Below, piece after piece: positions 19,499 through 25,219 of a stretch of 35,071 bases of DNA (positions are counted from its first letter, which is position 1; every line of letters begins with the position of its first letter). The notes beneath the pieces are model-generated. The model was not told the DNA's origin and made no database searches. It worked only from the letters and a program-made list of their open reading frames with translations. The translations under genes were made by a program, and so were the position numbers. This DNA comes from Fischerella muscicola PCC 7414 (GTDB taxonomy: Bacteria > Cyanobacteriota > Cyanobacteriia > Cyanobacteriales > Nostocaceae), in NCBI RefSeq assembly GCF_000317205.1, contig NZ_AJLK01000100.1:1-35071 (forward strand). The letters run 5' to 3'.

Positions 19499-20225
19499 CT
19501 TTCACAAAACTCGCTATTCGATTAATAAACAGTTTTTTCTTTCAAGATTGGGAAGGCTGTCTACATTATCATCACCTAATTCAGGTAAATGTGCCTGATA
19601 ACCACTGTCTAAGAGCTATTTTTTTGATGATCACAAATATAACATACCAGCGATTTTTTCTTATATCTTTTGAGATAATTTTCTATCCAAAATATTATTT
19701 CTGCTTTTCTATGAGCTTATTGGCTTGATTTATGCTTGATTCAAGTTTTCCATAAAAGATTAGCTGGTTTATCGATTTCTGATTAACTACATAAATTATG
19801 AATTAGCTTAGTAATTAAGTAATTAAGAAAATAGTTGTTAAAAAGAAAAAATTCCTATTTATATTTAGTGTAATAATGTCATTTCATTAGCCAAAAATTT
19901 AAAAATAGTGTTGGCTAATTACTAACAACCTGAAATATTTAAGTTTAGGCAAAGTGCTAGTAAGTGGTAAGAAAAATACTTGCAGACTAAAGTATAAAAT
20001 AATACTAATAATCTATCCACAAAAATGGAAATGTCAAACAAAGCGATCGCAACACGGGTAGGAACTCTCCTGCGTTCGACCTTCAGTTGTTCCACGGCTT
20101 AAAACCGATGGGTTTTCTGCTTTTATTGTTGTAATGGATGAAGAAGCGAAAATTCATACTGCCATACTGCAACGGCTACTATAGGACAACTGTTGATCTG
20201 CGAATGCTGGTGCGAAAATATATCT
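19499..20225. other. AT-rich intergenic region with one inverted repeat
   Basis: About 700 bp with no convincing gene lie between two divergent genes. ATTAGCCAA (19886-19894) and TTGGCTAAT (19911-19919) form a perfect 9-bp inverted repeat with a 16-nt loop, which could be a regulator site or hairpin. AAAACC/GGTTTT (20101-20116) is a small hairpin. A 16-codon frame at 20134-20184 has no recognisable content. The region presumably holds promoters for both flanking genes, but no clear -35/-10 pair was found. Confidence 0.5.
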
Positions 20226-21575
20226 ATGTCGATTGATTCCAACTCATCCCAAACCCCAAATCCAGAATCCATAACAGACCAAAACTTGCAACCAGATGAT
20301 TTTGAAAATTCATCTAACGGTGATCTGACTTCAGATGAACTGACTAGGCAGCAAGCCTTAGCTGCCATTGCCTCACTACAGTCTCCTCAAAACACATCTG
20401 CTTTACTGCAAGCACGTTCCGCATTCAAACCAGTTTCTGGTAAGGCTATTGGCGTTAAACCAAGGGCTTTGTTGCTGATAGTAGTCGCGATCGCGACTAC
20501 TATCATAGGACTTGCCATCAATAACTGGATTGTTGGTATTCTGGGAACCGTTGTAACTTTGTTATTATCTTTAGCTGTAGTTTGGCCTTGGTTGGAAGAA
20601 CTACAAAAAGAGTGGTTTTCAGCCCAAGAGCAAGCCTTAGTAGTTGGTTTATTGGGGATCATAGTAGCGATCGCTGGCTTAGTCAAATATAGCGGTCTCA
20701 GCAATTTCCTAGTTTCTGTAGGACGCAAAATCAACTGGGAAGCATCTGGAACACTGGCGGAATGGTTTGGTGCTTTAGGACAAATTCTCATTGCCATCAT
20801 CGCCGTTTACATTGCCTGGCGACAGTACATTATTTCTAAAGACCTAACTATTCAGCAAAACTTGCTCACCGTCCAACAAAATATCATTACCCAGCAGCAG
20901 ACAATAGATTCTTATTTTCAAGGTATTTCCGATCTAGTCTTAGATGAAGAAGGATTATTAGAAGATTGGCCTCAAGAAAGGTTACTAGCGGAAGGACGCA
21001 CTGCGGCTATTCTCAGCAGTGTAGATGGTAGTGGGAAAGCAAAAATTCTCCGGTTTCTATCTCGTTCTAAATTGCTTTCACCCTTAAAACGTGACAGCCT
21101 GCTTGGTCGAGCTATTCTTGATGGTACAGGAGGTTACTGTGAAGATCGGCTTCATGGCGTACGCGTGATTGATTTAGGCGTAATGCTTGCAGGTGCAGAT
21201 TTATCTGGCACTGATCTGCGGTGGACTGACTTAAGTGAAGCTAATCTTGTCCGTACTAATCTCAGTCAATGTGACTTAGTTAAAGCTAACCTCAGTCGTA
21301 GCATTTTATATGAAGCTAATCTTAGTGGTGCTGACTTGAACGGAATTCGTTTGTTCTATGGTTCAGCAGAAAATGCAACTCCTCGCAGTCGTACCCATCC
21401 ACCAAACTACAAAACTGGCGAATACACAGGTGCTGTCGTGGAAGATGCAGACTTTAGTGACGTCCAACGCCTGTCTGAAGTTAACCGATACTACTGCTGT
21501 GCTTGGGGTGGGGAAAAAACCAGAAGTACAATTCCTGGTGGTTGCGAAGGCATTCCTAATAAATTAGGAAGGTAG
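20226..21575 (+). CDS. Membrane-anchored pentapeptide-repeat protein
   Basis: This 449-residue protein has three regions. Residues 1-60 are a polar disordered N-terminus with a LTRQQALAAIASLQS stretch. Residues about 80-205 carry four hydrophobic helices: ALLLIVVAIATTIIGLAI, WIVGILGTVVTLLLSLAVVW, ALVVGLLGIIVAIAGL and ILIAIIAVYIAW. Then comes a cytoplasmic part with a Gln-rich coiled coil (LTIQQNLLTVQQNIITQQQ) and about ten pentapeptide repeats (GADLSGTDLRWTDLSEANLV and on) near residues 320-385. The last 50 residues contain Cys pairs (YYCCAWGG). The frame is open from 20193; ATG 20226 gives the polar N-terminus. Function is unknown; the pattern recalls pentapeptide membrane proteins frequent in filamentous cyanobacteria. 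Confidence 0.82.
   Translation: MSIDSNSSQTPNPESITDQNLQPDDFENSSNGDLTSDELTRQQALAAIASLQSPQNTSALLQARSAFKPVSGKAIGVKPRALLLIVVAIATTIIGLAINNWIVGILGTVVTLLLSLAVVWPWLEELQKEWFSAQEQALVVGLLGIIVAIAGLVKYSGLSNFLVSVGRKINWEASGTLAEWFGALGQILIAIIAVYIAWRQYIISKDLTIQQNLLTVQQNIITQQQTIDSYFQGISDLVLDEEGLLEDWPQERLLAEGRTAAILSSVDGSGKAKILRFLSRSKLLSPLKRDSLLGRAILDGTGGYCEDRLHGVRVIDLGVMLAGADLSGTDLRWTDLSEANLVRTNLSQCDLVKANLSRSILYEANLSGADLNGIRLFYGSAENATPRSRTHPPNYKTGEYTGAVVEDADFSDVQRLSEVNRYYCCAWGGEKTRSTIPGGCEGIPNKLGR
20476..20505. repeat. 30-bp perfect palindrome centred on HIP1, inside a coding sequence
   Basis: Positions 20476-20490 (TGATAGTAGTCGCGA) are the exact reverse complement of 20491-20505. The centre, 20487-20494, is the HIP1 octamer GCGATCGC. 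The palindrome codes for IVVAIATTI in the first membrane helix of the pentapeptide protein, where a hydrophobic helix tolerates the mirrored codons. Confidence 0.9.
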
Positions 21576-21636: not shown

Positions 21637-22467
21637 TTAACCATTAACATTTACTTTCTTGGCTAATCCCAGAGTCTGCAAAACTTTAATTGCCCACCAA
21701 GTCATATCTACTTCCCACCAAGACAATCCAGCTTTGGCTACATTTGGGTGAGCATGGTGATTGTTGTGCCAACCTTCTCCATAAGTCAAAAGTGCTGCCC
21801 ACCAAAGATTACGAGAGTTATCATTCACTTGGAAATGACGATAACCACGCAGATGACTTGCAGAGTTGATTAGCCAAGTGCTATGCCAAAGCAATACTGC
21901 TCGTAGAAATACACCATAGACAACAAAAGACCATCCTCCCCAAGCATACAAGAGGACAGCAACAGGAATTTGTAATAGCAAAAAGTAGCGATTTAGCCAA
22001 CGATAGAATGGATCACGATCTAAATCAGAAGCAAATTTTTTGTACATTTCATATTCAAAAAACTCTGGACGCGGGTAAAAAAGCCACAGCATATGACTCC
22101 ACCAAAAACCACGTCGGGAGGAGTAAGGGTCTTTGTCTATGTCTTCGGTATGAAGGTGATGTAGTCGATGTCCAGCCACCCAAAAGATTGGCCCTCCTTG
22201 TAAGGCAAGAGCGCCCAAAGTTGCGATCGCATACTCCAACCACTTCGGTACGTGCAAACTTCGGTGAGTCAAAAGTCGGTGATACCCTAAACAAATACCG
22301 ATGCTGCCAAATAACCAATGCAGGAATATGGTTATTCCCAAAGCAGACCAAGAAAAACACCAAGGAGCAAGCAGTGCTAGGGCGTGGAACGTGCCAAAAA
22401 ATACCACGCTAGTCCAACTCAGAGTCAACGGTTGTTTGTCAACAGCCGCTGTTGAGTGTGTAGTCAT
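21637..22467 (-). CDS. desC: Acyl-lipid delta-9 fatty acid desaturase (DesC type)
   Basis: This 276-residue membrane diiron desaturase has the three histidine boxes of the class: HRLLTH at residues 63-68, HRLHH at 100-104, and EGWHNNHHAHP in the C-terminal third. Flanking blocks GSIGICLGYHRL, GALALQGGPIFWVAGHR and LLWHSTWLINSASH match cyanobacterial DesC as I recall it. DesC introduces the first double bond at C9 of acyl chains esterified to membrane glycerolipids, using ferredoxin as electron donor. The frame is open to 22560, but ATG 22467 has AAGGA about 9 nt upstream and gives the normal length. It is divergent from the TetR-fusion gene, with 192 bp between starts, so that regulator is a candidate controller. 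Confidence 0.9.
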   Translation of the reverse strand: MTTHSTAAVDKQPLTLSWTSVVFFGTFHALALLAPWCFSWSALGITIFLHWLFGSIGICLGYHRLLTHRSLHVPKWLEYAIATLGALALQGGPIFWVAGHRLHHLHTEDIDKDPYSSRRGFWWSHMLWLFYPRPEFFEYEMYKKFASDLDRDPFYRWLNRYFLLLQIPVAVLLYAWGGWSFVVYGVFLRAVLLWHSTWLINSASHLRGYRHFQVNDNSRNLWWAALLTYGEGWHNNHHAHPNVAKAGLSWWEVDMTWWAIKVLQTLGLAKKVNVNG

Positions 22468-22490
22468 AAAATTTTTCCTTTGACGTGAAT

Positions 22491-22521: not shown

Positions 22522-22585
22522 GCATGTACTGTTTATTACATCCCCTGTGTAAGTTGACAAAGACAGCTAAACTAGGAATAGAGGA

Positions 22586-22602
22586 TGCAAGTGCTACTTA
22601 CA
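22586..22602. promoter_or_regulatory. Operator-like palindrome O1 upstream of the tetR fusion
   Basis: TGCAAGT-GCT-ACTTACA is a 7+3+7 inverted repeat with one mismatch. It repeats the motif of O2, 47 bp downstream. It lies 58 bp before the regulator's ATG. Confidence 0.6.
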
Positions 22603-22632
22603 TGCCTAAGTCTAGCAAGGATAAAATTTAAT

Positions 22633-22659: not shown

Positions 22660-23865
22660 ATGTCTAATCAAGTCATTTCTACTCGACAGCGATTAATTAA
22701 TGCAGCCAGATCATTATTTGCGACGCAGGGAGTCACCGAGACTACAACAAAGCAAGTTGCAGAATTAGCAGAAGTGAATGAAGTGACACTATTCCGCCAT
22801 TTTGGCAATAAGCACGGGTTACTCTTGGCAGTAATTTCGGAATCACCAGTATTTCAAGAACTGGATGAGTCTTTAAAAATTCAAGCTAGCCAACCAGCTA
22901 GTGTTCACCAAGCGCTGAAAAACTATTGTGAGGATCGCCTACAGGCTTTAGAAAAAGTCCCCGATCTGGTGCGTTCTGTAGTTGGTGAAGCAGGAAATTA
23001 CCCTTTAGAAAACCGTCAGGCATTAGGACGCAGCTTAACTGAAGCTAATCACTATGTTGCCGAATATTTAGCAACAGTCATGGAACGTGAGCAATTACAC
23101 ACCCATTTATCAGCCAAGAAGTTAGCAAGCTTACTCAATAGTATGTTGGTGGGGTACGCTGTGATTGAATTTACCAGTGAATTTCACCAACTTTGGGTTG
23201 ACAGAGACGAGTTTTTAGAGAATTTGGTGGCGCTGTTTTTAAAAGGAGCAACAAACTCTACAAGTTTAGGAGAATCTATTTCTACAGAAAAGGTGATAGA
23301 TTTACCAGCAAATTTAGTTCACCTGATTTTGCAACGAGCCAAAAAATCAGGACTGCGAGATTATGCCTTAATATATGTCTTATTTGCAGCAGGTTTATCG
23401 ACCGCAGAAATTGTGAATTTAGAGCGATCGCATCAAATCAACGATGCCAATCAGCACTTATTACAAATCACTCAAGGTACTCCTCGACAAGTGCCTGTGA
23501 ATCAGTGGATTATGGGTAAGCGCTATGGCTCCTATACTCGCAATCCCTTAACTCAATGGCTCAAAAGCCGTAAAGATGAACATGCAGCGTTATTTCTCAA
23601 CAATGAGGGAATGCCAATATCTGAGGAAGAAATACAGAGAATTTGGCACATATTAACTGAGGGATTGCTGACACCAGAAGGACAACAGCCAGTCATTGAG
23701 CAAGCTCAACAAACATGGTGTGTAGAAATGCTGATGAAGGGAATGAATTTAGAGCAGATGAGTCTGATTACTGGTTGGAATTTAAGTAAGCTACAACCCT
23801 ATGCTCGTAGGTCGAAAGAGAAATTGGCTTTAGAGCAAGCTATTCGTCTTGATCATAAAGTGTAG
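22660..23865 (+). CDS. TetR-family regulator fused to a tyrosine-recombinase-like domain
   Basis: This 401-residue protein has two parts. Residues 7-60 are a TetR HTH (STRQRLINAARSLFATQGVT, TKQVAELAEVNEVTLFRHF), and residues 60-195 a helical TetR ligand domain; a usual TetR ends there. Residues about 215-395 add a second domain. Its sequence GLRDYALIYVLFAAGLSTAEIVNL resembles the start of a phage-integrase/XerC-type catalytic domain. NEGMPISEEEIQRIWHIL and LITGWNLSKLQPYARRS correspond to later blocks. The first catalytic Arg is Ser247, and the HxxR and GH residues are missing (GW372-373). A Tyr (381) remains near the nucleophile position, so recombinase chemistry is unlikely. ATG 22660 is chosen; the upstream frame from 22585 would overlap the operators. 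The domain may aid DNA contact or multimerisation. Confidence 0.75.
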   Translation: MSNQVISTRQRLINAARSLFATQGVTETTTKQVAELAEVNEVTLFRHFGNKHGLLLAVISESPVFQELDESLKIQASQPASVHQALKNYCEDRLQALEKVPDLVRSVVGEAGNYPLENRQALGRSLTEANHYVAEYLATVMEREQLHTHLSAKKLASLLNSMLVGYAVIEFTSEFHQLWVDRDEFLENLVALFLKGATNSTSLGESISTEKVIDLPANLVHLILQRAKKSGLRDYALIYVLFAAGLSTAEIVNLERSHQINDANQHLLQITQGTPRQVPVNQWIMGKRYGSYTRNPLTQWLKSRKDEHAALFLNNEGMPISEEEIQRIWHILTEGLLTPEGQQPVIEQAQQTWCVEMLMKGMNLEQMSLITGWNLSKLQPYARRSKEKLALEQAIRLDHKV

Positions 23866-23986
23866 ATTTAACTGATGGAGTGAGGAGCAATCACCTGACC
23901 TTGTTGCAGATAATTTGTTCAAGGTCACATAGGGAAAGATTAATCACGCTAAAATCTTCAATAAAATCTGATTGATGTAATTTGTG

Positions 23987-24160
23987 ATGAAAATCAAAGC
24001 AGTTATCTGGCAAGAAGATGGCGTTTGGTGTGGATCTGTACCTGCTCTACCGGGGTGTCACACTTGGGGAAATAGCTACGAACACTTATTAGAAATGCTA
24101 CAAGATGCTATTCAAGGCTGGTTGGAAGTTGCCAGTGAGCAAGAGGAGCTTGAACCTTAA
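23987..24160 (+). CDS. HicB-family (UPF0150) antitoxin-like protein, orphan
   Basis: This 57-residue protein begins MKIKAVIWQEDGVWCGSVPA, with LPGCHTWGNSYEHLLEMLQD next. This is the HicB/UPF0150 fold: a partial RNase H-like strand set followed by a helix, in its short form without a C-terminal DNA-binding domain. HicB proteins neutralise the mRNA-cleaving toxin HicA. No HicA-like gene (a 60-80 residue dsRBD-like protein with GSHxxY) is found on either side, so the antitoxin looks orphaned. A GTG lies just before the ATG. It is followed by about 320 bp of apparently non-coding DNA. Confidence 0.8.
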   Translation: MKIKAVIWQEDGVWCGSVPALPGCHTWGNSYEHLLEMLQDAIQGWLEVASEQEELEP

Positions 24161-24445: not shown

Positions 24446-24483
24446 CTTGTATATTGAGGGAAGTAGTAGAGGTAAAGAGTAAT

Positions 24484-24684
24484 ATGTCAACCATCGAAGA
24501 AATTGAAGCAGCTATTTTAACACTTCCGCCAGAAGACTTCGAGCATCTAAGGCGGTGGTTCTTTGATTTGGATTATCAGCGTTGGGATGAGCAGCTAGAG
24601 CAAGATATTGCAGATGGCAAGTTAGAAGCCTTAGCTCAAGAAGCGATCGCTGAATTCAAAGCGGGGCAGTGTCGAGAGATGTAA
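24484..24684 (+). CDS. Antitoxin of a ParE/RelE-type toxin-antitoxin pair
   Basis: This 66-residue acidic protein begins MSTIEEIEAAILTLPPEDFE, with LRRWFFDLDYQRWDEQLEQD in the middle. This pattern is typical of the small helical antitoxins that precede RelE/ParE-like toxins in cyanobacteria. The C-terminal part (GKLEALAQEAIAEFKAG) would wrap the toxin. Its stop codon overlaps the toxin start (TAATG), a tight translational coupling. The frame is open from 24454; ATG 24484 is preferred because homologues as I recall them begin MSTxEEI. Most such pairs are autoregulated. Confidence 0.78.
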   Translation: MSTIEEIEAAILTLPPEDFEHLRRWFFDLDYQRWDEQLEQDIADGKLEALAQEAIAEFKAGQCREM

Positions 24685-24944
24685 TGCATTATACGACACG
24701 ACGATTTTGGAAGTGTTACAACACTTTACCTGAAAACGCGCAGAAAACTGCTGATCAATCCTATGAGTTGCTTAAAGCCGATCCGTCTCATCCATCGTTG
24801 CATTTCAAAAAGATTGGTAACAAGTATTGGTCAGTTCGCGCAGGGCTAGATTATCGGGCTTTAGGTGTCGAAGTAGAAGGTGGCATTTCCTGGTTTTGGA
24901 TTGGAACTCATGCAGAGTACGACAAGTTAATCGGTAAGTTGTAG
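24684..24944 (+). CDS. ParE/RelE-family toxin
   Basis: The 86-residue basic protein has the RelE/ParE toxin fold pattern. RFWKCYNTLPENAQKTADQS is the N-terminal helical hairpin. HPSLHFKKIGNKYWSVRAGL and DYRALGVEVEGGISWFWIGT form the beta-sheet with conserved Arg and Tyr. HAEYDKLI closes the C-terminus, as in many cyanobacterial ParE-like toxins. Such toxins either cut ribosome-bound mRNA (RelE) or poison gyrase (ParE); which applies here is not decided. The ATG overlaps the antitoxin stop. All expected elements are present, so the pair seems intact. Confidence 0.82.
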   Translation: MHYTTRRFWKCYNTLPENAQKTADQSYELLKADPSHPSLHFKKIGNKYWSVRAGLDYRALGVEVEGGISWFWIGTHAEYDKLIGKL

Positions 24945-24982: not shown

Positions 24983-25219
24983 GATATCGACCCCCAAAAG
25001 GGAAAGAGACTTGGCGAATTAATGTTAATAGATGCGCTCAAAAAGTTATTAGATACAACTACACAAGTTGCGTCTGTTGCTGTAATTGCAGAAGCTTTGG
25101 ATGAGGAAGCTTTAAGCTTTTATGTTAAATATGGCTTTCAGCATTTTCAGCAGGAGCCTATGAAGCTTTACTTACCCATGAAGTCTGTTGAAGAGCTTTG
25201 CCTGTATCTTGGAACATAG
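24983..25219 (+). pseudogene. Truncated GNAT acetyltransferase toxin (C-terminal half)
   Basis: The frame reads DPQKGKRLGELMLIDALKKL, then AVIAEALDEEALSFYVKYGF and LYLPMKSVEEL. This matches the acetyl-CoA-binding loop and C-terminal half of TacT/AtaT-type GNAT toxins, which acetylate aminoacyl-tRNA. The N-terminal half of about 85 residues is missing; a stop codon at 24980-24982 precedes the homology, and the upstream DNA is the ParE toxin gene. An ATG at 25022 would give only 65 residues without the full acetyl-CoA loop. No ribbon-helix-helix (DUF1778) antitoxin, the usual partner, is nearby. It is most likely a decayed toxin-antitoxin system. Confidence 0.75.

Follow-up and report, generated by a model that had tools for sequence, protein, structure and literature searches.

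A TetR-type regulator carrying a degenerate tyrosine-recombinase domain, with paired predicted operators and a divergent desaturase gene in cyanobacteria

TetR/AcrR regulators (for example, EthR and the FadR of Bacillus subtilis) combine a helix-turn-helix (HTH) with an all-helical core and palindromic operators in a divergent promoter, an arrangement shared, with operators that are predicted, by the cyanobacterial protein described here. This protein, however, is twice as long, has a domain of recombinase fold attached behind its ligand core and keeps its operators in a fixed pair. Xer-type tyrosine recombinases such as XerA and XerH share the fold of the catalytic domain, whereas the fusion lacks the catalytic set, has a TetR regulator in place of the core-binding N-terminal domain and has yielded no close viral or phage relative in our searches. 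Dead tyrosine-recombinase domains are already known from eukaryotic transcriptional regulators, as set out in the available part of PMC3212892. The Crypton-derived DUF3504/GCR1-type proteins treated there (KCTD1, ZMYM2, QRICH1 and Gcr1) may be regarded as analogues of the present fusion. According to the same portion of that source, these cases are old and the function of the domain is not known; they are eukaryotic and have other partner domains, and the animal ones have lost the catalytic tyrosine, whereas the fusion mostly keeps it.

The earlier note on this DNA had proposed a novel architecture. As far as the available part of PMC3212892 goes, the reuse of a dead recombinase in transcription factors has eukaryotic precedent and is not novel in itself; the bacterial, TetR-fused form of the pseudo-recombinase, on the other hand, appears to be new. 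PMC8987985, which reviews how prokaryotes have recruited genes of mobile elements, showed no such case in its accessible part, and no earlier description of a TetR-recombinase fusion was found in the open-licence literature. The locus would thus offer a bacterial case of a mobile-element enzyme fold in a transcription factor, with target gene and operators in hand.

The window (the whole stretch of DNA analysed, 35,071 nucleotides) holds on its forward strand an open reading frame (ORF) of 401 aa, from an ATG at 22660 to a stop at 23865. A longer in-frame start (ATG 22585, 426 aa) was rejected; it abuts operator 1, so 22660 is probably the better start. A Pfam scan with the whole protein placed TetR_N at residues 12-58 (E 5.6e-13) and Phage_integrase PF00589 at residues 219-386 (E 2.9e-10), each scoring above its curated cut-off, and the latter reached E 5.2e-11 when the C-terminal domain was scanned alone. 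NCBIfam models point to both halves as well, though none reaches its curated cut-off (TetR, 1e-12 to 1e-11 for the best models; XerD, 3.5e-10; XerC, 3.3e-9). With the whole-protein model, Foldseek matched the TetR half to EthR and B. subtilis FadR (TM 0.70-0.76 by target length), matches that support the all-helical core, the pLDDT of this half being moderate; phmmer matched it to 3dew (E 3.2e-8). The presence of FadR among the best folds provides a possible link to fatty acids, although EthR and others rank alike. In the whole-protein model (pLDDT 82.2, pTM 0.50) the linker is disordered and the relative placement of the halves is not fixed; the equivalents of residues 198-213 span 14-40 aa across 52 members. 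The coordinates of the features are collected in Table 1.

Table 1. Features of the regulator locus, with their positions in the window
Feature	Position	Strand	Basis
Membrane fatty-acid desaturase gene, presumed target	21637..22470	-	Pfam FA_desaturase E 6.9e-23; PDB acyl-CoA desaturases E 2.3e-32
Operator 1, TGCAAGTGCTACTTACA, 13 of 14 bases of the palindrome	22586..22602	+	Pattern match (predicted site)
Operator 2, TGCAAGTGTTACTTGCA, perfect palindrome with its end 10 bp upstream of the start codon	22633..22649	+	Pattern match (predicted site)
TetR-type N-terminal half, residues 1-200 (HTH 12-58, then all-helical core)	22660..23259	+	Pfam, Foldseek, phmmer
Flexible linker, about residues 198-209	23251..23287	+	pLDDT <50 at 198-209; length range
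Pseudo-tyrosine-recombinase domain (integrase catalytic fold), residues 209-401	23284..23862	+	Pfam, model, catalytic columns

The fold of the C-terminal domain is that of a tyrosine recombinase: whether by profile, by sequence or by fold, every search ended in this family, and the outcome that would have refuted the earlier note, an unrelated fold, did not occur. Modelled alone from 61 relatives, residues 209-401 gave a mean pLDDT of 95.6 and a pTM of 0.91; the best Foldseek match in the PDB was XerA (E 1.3e-9, TM 0.75 by query length), with XerH, Tn1549 Int and Cre among the other top matches. The closest solved sequence relative is the archaeal Xer recombinase 4a8e, at E 0.0037 for the single sequence and E 1.6e-9 when the 61-row profile of the domain was used in the PDB sequence search. 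The core-binding N-terminal domain of recombinases is absent from the Pfam scan, residues 1-200 being TetR. In a viral library, the named matches were mostly phage integrases. Regarding the origin of the domain, no close viral relative was found (34 pattern matches, none confirmed), and the single phage match was weak (24% identity, E 3e-4).

The active site, in contrast, has been lost. The window protein has S247, E347, Q350, W373 and Y381 at the catalytic places, and the claim that it lacks the Arg and His residues is right, with Ser, Glu and Gln standing at those positions. Among 61 aligned members, the Arg-I column holds Ser in 44 and Arg in 2, the His column of the HxxR motif holds Glu in 41 and His in none, the Arg-II column holds Gln in 41 and Arg in 17, and the His/Trp column holds Trp in 43 and His in none, while the catalytic Tyr is kept in 56. 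Since the catalytic His occurs in none of the 61, no member has the full catalytic set. Two members (L028 and L084) retain four of these five catalytic residues, namely both Arg, Trp and Tyr, and lack the His only; such uneven decay fits descent from an active recombinase. The position of the beta-hairpin Lys is uncertain, columns 272-275 being unconserved, with Lys in few rows. Four other residues (R276, Q348, T352 and W353) are invariant in all 61. The description of the protein as a TetR regulator fused to a dead tyrosine-recombinase-like domain is thus borne out by Pfam, the models and the catalytic columns.

The fusion belongs to a conserved family and is no one-off, as the survey of its phylogenetic spread proposed earlier has found. 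It is present in full in 33 of 60 near genomes (own genome included) and in 41 of 386 genomes drawn from the phylum; one genome (G388) was matched in two pieces and nevertheless has a single ORF of 472 aa. The best 80 of 162 confirmed relatives in the genome collection are cyanobacterial by their records. These 80, together with 10 distant members picked from the phylum draw, make up most of the 93 fusion loci compared below, a set in which some genomes possibly occur more than once and in which L087 and L088 share one genome (Mastigocoleus testarum BC008). The latter two lie on separate contigs, do not differ in their regulator match (64% identity, identical E-value) or in operator layout, and are either a duplicate or an assembly copy. 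A further copy (L190), 62% identical over 99%, lies on the 29-kb plasmid pP742403 (NC_011730.1) of Gloeothece citriformis PCC 7424, where it is annotated as a TetR/AcrR regulator only and is divergent from a fatty-acid desaturase. The neighbours of the pair on this plasmid (an orange-carotenoid-protein N domain, an ssl1498-type light-harvesting-like protein and a fasciclin protein) hint at light stress.

A divergent desaturase gene accompanies the regulator wherever it was examined: at all 93 fusion loci and beside the three relatives that have the TetR half only (96 of 96), at all 56 loci with long flanks (the next commonest neighbour occurring in 10) and, by coordinates, next to all 41 fusion genes of the phylum draw. 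In the window, its likely start is the ATG at 22470, with a TTG farther upstream at 22560. Judged by eye, its His boxes are like those of the DesC1/DesC2 delta-9 desaturases quoted in the available part of PMC4390868. Neither half of the regulator occurs near 25 close desaturase genes, and the regulator is therefore not required for the enzyme. At one locus (L185, G254), the desaturase beside the fusion consists of two overlapping ORFs of 183 and 150 aa and is broken or mis-assembled.

The two operators of the earlier note are present as palindromes in the intergenic region (Table 1). In the window, the pattern with at most two mismatches occurs at these two places only; at least two matches arose in 3 of 100 shuffles of the window. 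All 93 fusion loci have at least two copies of TGCAAGTNNNACTTGCA (at least 11 of 14 bases) in the gap between the genes; at this threshold, 92 loci have two sites and one has three, and at a threshold of at least 12 bases, 89 have two, three have one and one has three. Operator spacing is 46-47 bp in 77 of 92 loci, 43-52 bp in 91 and 85 bp in the remaining one. When the 96 intergenic regions were shuffled at constant composition, 20 times each, 15 of the 1920 shuffles contained one site and none contained two. As a control, 29 desaturase loci without the regulator, 199,224 bp in all, were scanned; 25 of the desaturases are close relatives and 4 are more distant. These loci held 15 sites of 11 bases, one of 12 and none of at least 13, as against 139 sites of at least 13 bases in 20,734 bp of fusion intergenic DNA.

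Beyond the fusion locus the pattern is nearly absent. With at most one mismatch, the own genome holds the two operators and one further site inside an ORF of 480 aa. Among the 60 near genomes, the exact pattern occurs in 29 of the 33 that carry the fusion and in 1 of the 27 that do not. Two of its occurrences (G039:C71 and G009:C526) are away from the fusion locus, and a reversed control pattern matched once in two genomes. A wider regulon was accordingly rejected; the sites belong to the regulator/desaturase pair, and the regulator looks local.

The relatives with the TetR half only (L144 of G067, L145 of G369 and L146 of G217; 234-254 aa) adjoin the same desaturase, and no remnant of the C-terminal domain was found when looked for in the three. 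The operator pair does not need the C-terminal domain, as L144 has both operators at a spacing of 47 bp; the more distant L145 and L146 have one operator each. A tree built from the TetR half places L144 with a fusion row, at values of 89/50 that fall short of good support, and puts L145 and L146 on a long branch; this topology does not separate loss from primary absence of the domain.

Between the operators, about 10-15 bp past operator 1, lies a weakly conserved TA(A/G)CAA element, sometimes with a small dyad, which may be either a promoter element or another binding site. A promoter scan of the regulator's strand found no sigma-70 promoter, and that of the opposite strand gave one weak sigma-70 site, no more than chance. 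By eye, TAAAAT at 22622-22627 could be the -10 of the regulator's promoter, and the coverage of promoters by the operators was likewise judged by eye.

Taken at the level of sequence, these features are best read, with moderate confidence, as those of a dedicated local regulator, a likely repressor of itself and of the divergent desaturase gene, in which the pseudo-recombinase domain probably serves as a non-catalytic oligomerisation or bridging module. A TetR-type dimer would bind each of the two palindromes of 17 bp, which lie in the shared promoter region at a spacing of about 47 bp. Operator 2 lies near the start codon and operator 1 toward the desaturase, so protein on both would block both genes; auto-repression together with repression of the desaturase is the expected outcome. 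A lipid-type ligand in the helical core would release the regulator, and the desaturase would then be made. As the target gene is a desaturase and FadR is among the fold matches, a fatty-acid ligand is our guess, perhaps an acyl chain on its carrier. The C-terminal domain would represent the catalytic fold of an Xer-like tyrosine recombinase, captured in its entirety and retained as a non-catalytic module after catalysis had been lost. Lying beside one desaturase gene with two matching sites, this dead domain suggests that the fold of a mobile-DNA enzyme has been recycled into a regulator of membrane lipids, and the locus points to a specific regulator of a cyanobacterial desaturase gene. In cyanobacteria, control of membrane lipid unsaturation matters in temperature and light stress.

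Recombinases pair on DNA, and the preferred role of the C-terminal domain is that it would likewise hold two dimers together across the two operators, followed in preference by a general oligomerisation or DNA-clamp role. The two operators at all 93 fusion loci and the single operator of two distant TetR-only relatives speak for bridging, whereas the pair of L144, 47 bp apart without the domain, speaks against it. In view of L144, the DNA looping between the operators suggested earlier is only consistent with the conserved pairing. A spacing of 43-52 bp, with no single helical phase, does not favour a rigid bridge, and the lower basicity of the domain, compared with active recombinases of the own genome (net charges below), likewise speaks against bridging. 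A more specific version, in which synapsis was kept while the chemistry was lost, so that the pseudo-recombinase domains pair two TetR dimers, on operators spaced by 47 bp, into a small, stable loop or clamp that acts as a lipid-responsive switch of the desaturase, is tentative and seems possible rather than probable. If true, it would be a recombination synapse turned transcription switch, in bacteria. The role of the dead domain is directly testable, with one protein, two known sites and natural relatives devoid of the domain as controls.

The C-terminal domain might instead be a second DNA-binding or clamp module, the DNA-embracing surface of the recombinase gripping DNA beside or between the operators and raising affinity with no bridging. 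In the solved relatives, among them XerA, Cre and XerH, the catalytic fold embraces DNA; R276 and a loop with invariant G286, G290, N295, P296 and L297 have been kept, and the TA(A/G)CAA element offers a possible site between the operators. That element, however, also occurs in L144 despite the missing domain, and it may belong to a promoter. Further, the median net charge of the domain is +2, as against +10, +9 and +5 in the same stretch of three recombinases of the own genome, and this lower basicity argues against strong DNA binding; the clamp is on balance rather unlikely. Similarly doubtful is a sensor or protein-interaction domain, one that no longer touches DNA and instead recognises a small ligand or a protein, such as a lipid or acyl-carrier signal, with its output going to the TetR half. 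The residues that are newly invariant round the old active site (R276, Q348, T352 and W353) would fit a new pocket and the linker is long and variable, although a ligand pocket is already offered by the TetR core.

Apart from these functional roles, the C-terminal domain could be a passenger, an accident of an old insertion kept with no function of its own, as L144, L145 and L146, which work or at least survive without it, might suggest. The domain is, however, free of stops in the 93 loci and under purifying selection despite its broken catalytic set, judging from substitution patterns that resemble those of the N-terminal domain: dN/dS is 0.09-0.14 as against 0.05-0.11 (6 pairs), and mean pairwise identity is 65% as against 67% (1326 pairs). 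The passenger reading, largely refuted by these selection data and by the residues invariant in 61 of 61 members, was rejected as very improbable. Least credible of all is a protein that still acts as a recombinase through an atypical active site, guided by the TetR half. The retained Tyr and the two members with both Arg, Trp and Tyr might be cited for it, but in the window protein both Arg and the His are missing, the His is absent from the whole alignment and the Pfam scan gives no core-binding domain.

Downstream of the regulator, the region 24454-24944 holds an ORF of 76 aa, which may encode an antitoxin, followed by a ParE-like toxin ORF (24669-24944, forward strand; Pfam ParE_like, E 5.1e-7). 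Short ORFs nearby on the same strand, at 23984-24160 and 25022-25219, resemble by eye a HicB-type piece and a GNAT-end piece, and this stretch looks, by eye, like a small patch of toxin-antitoxin genes and their remains. On the far side of the desaturase gene, an ORF at 20193-21575 (forward strand) encodes a protein with a membrane-like N-terminal part and pentapeptide repeats, relatives of which occur in 8 of the 56 loci with long flanks.
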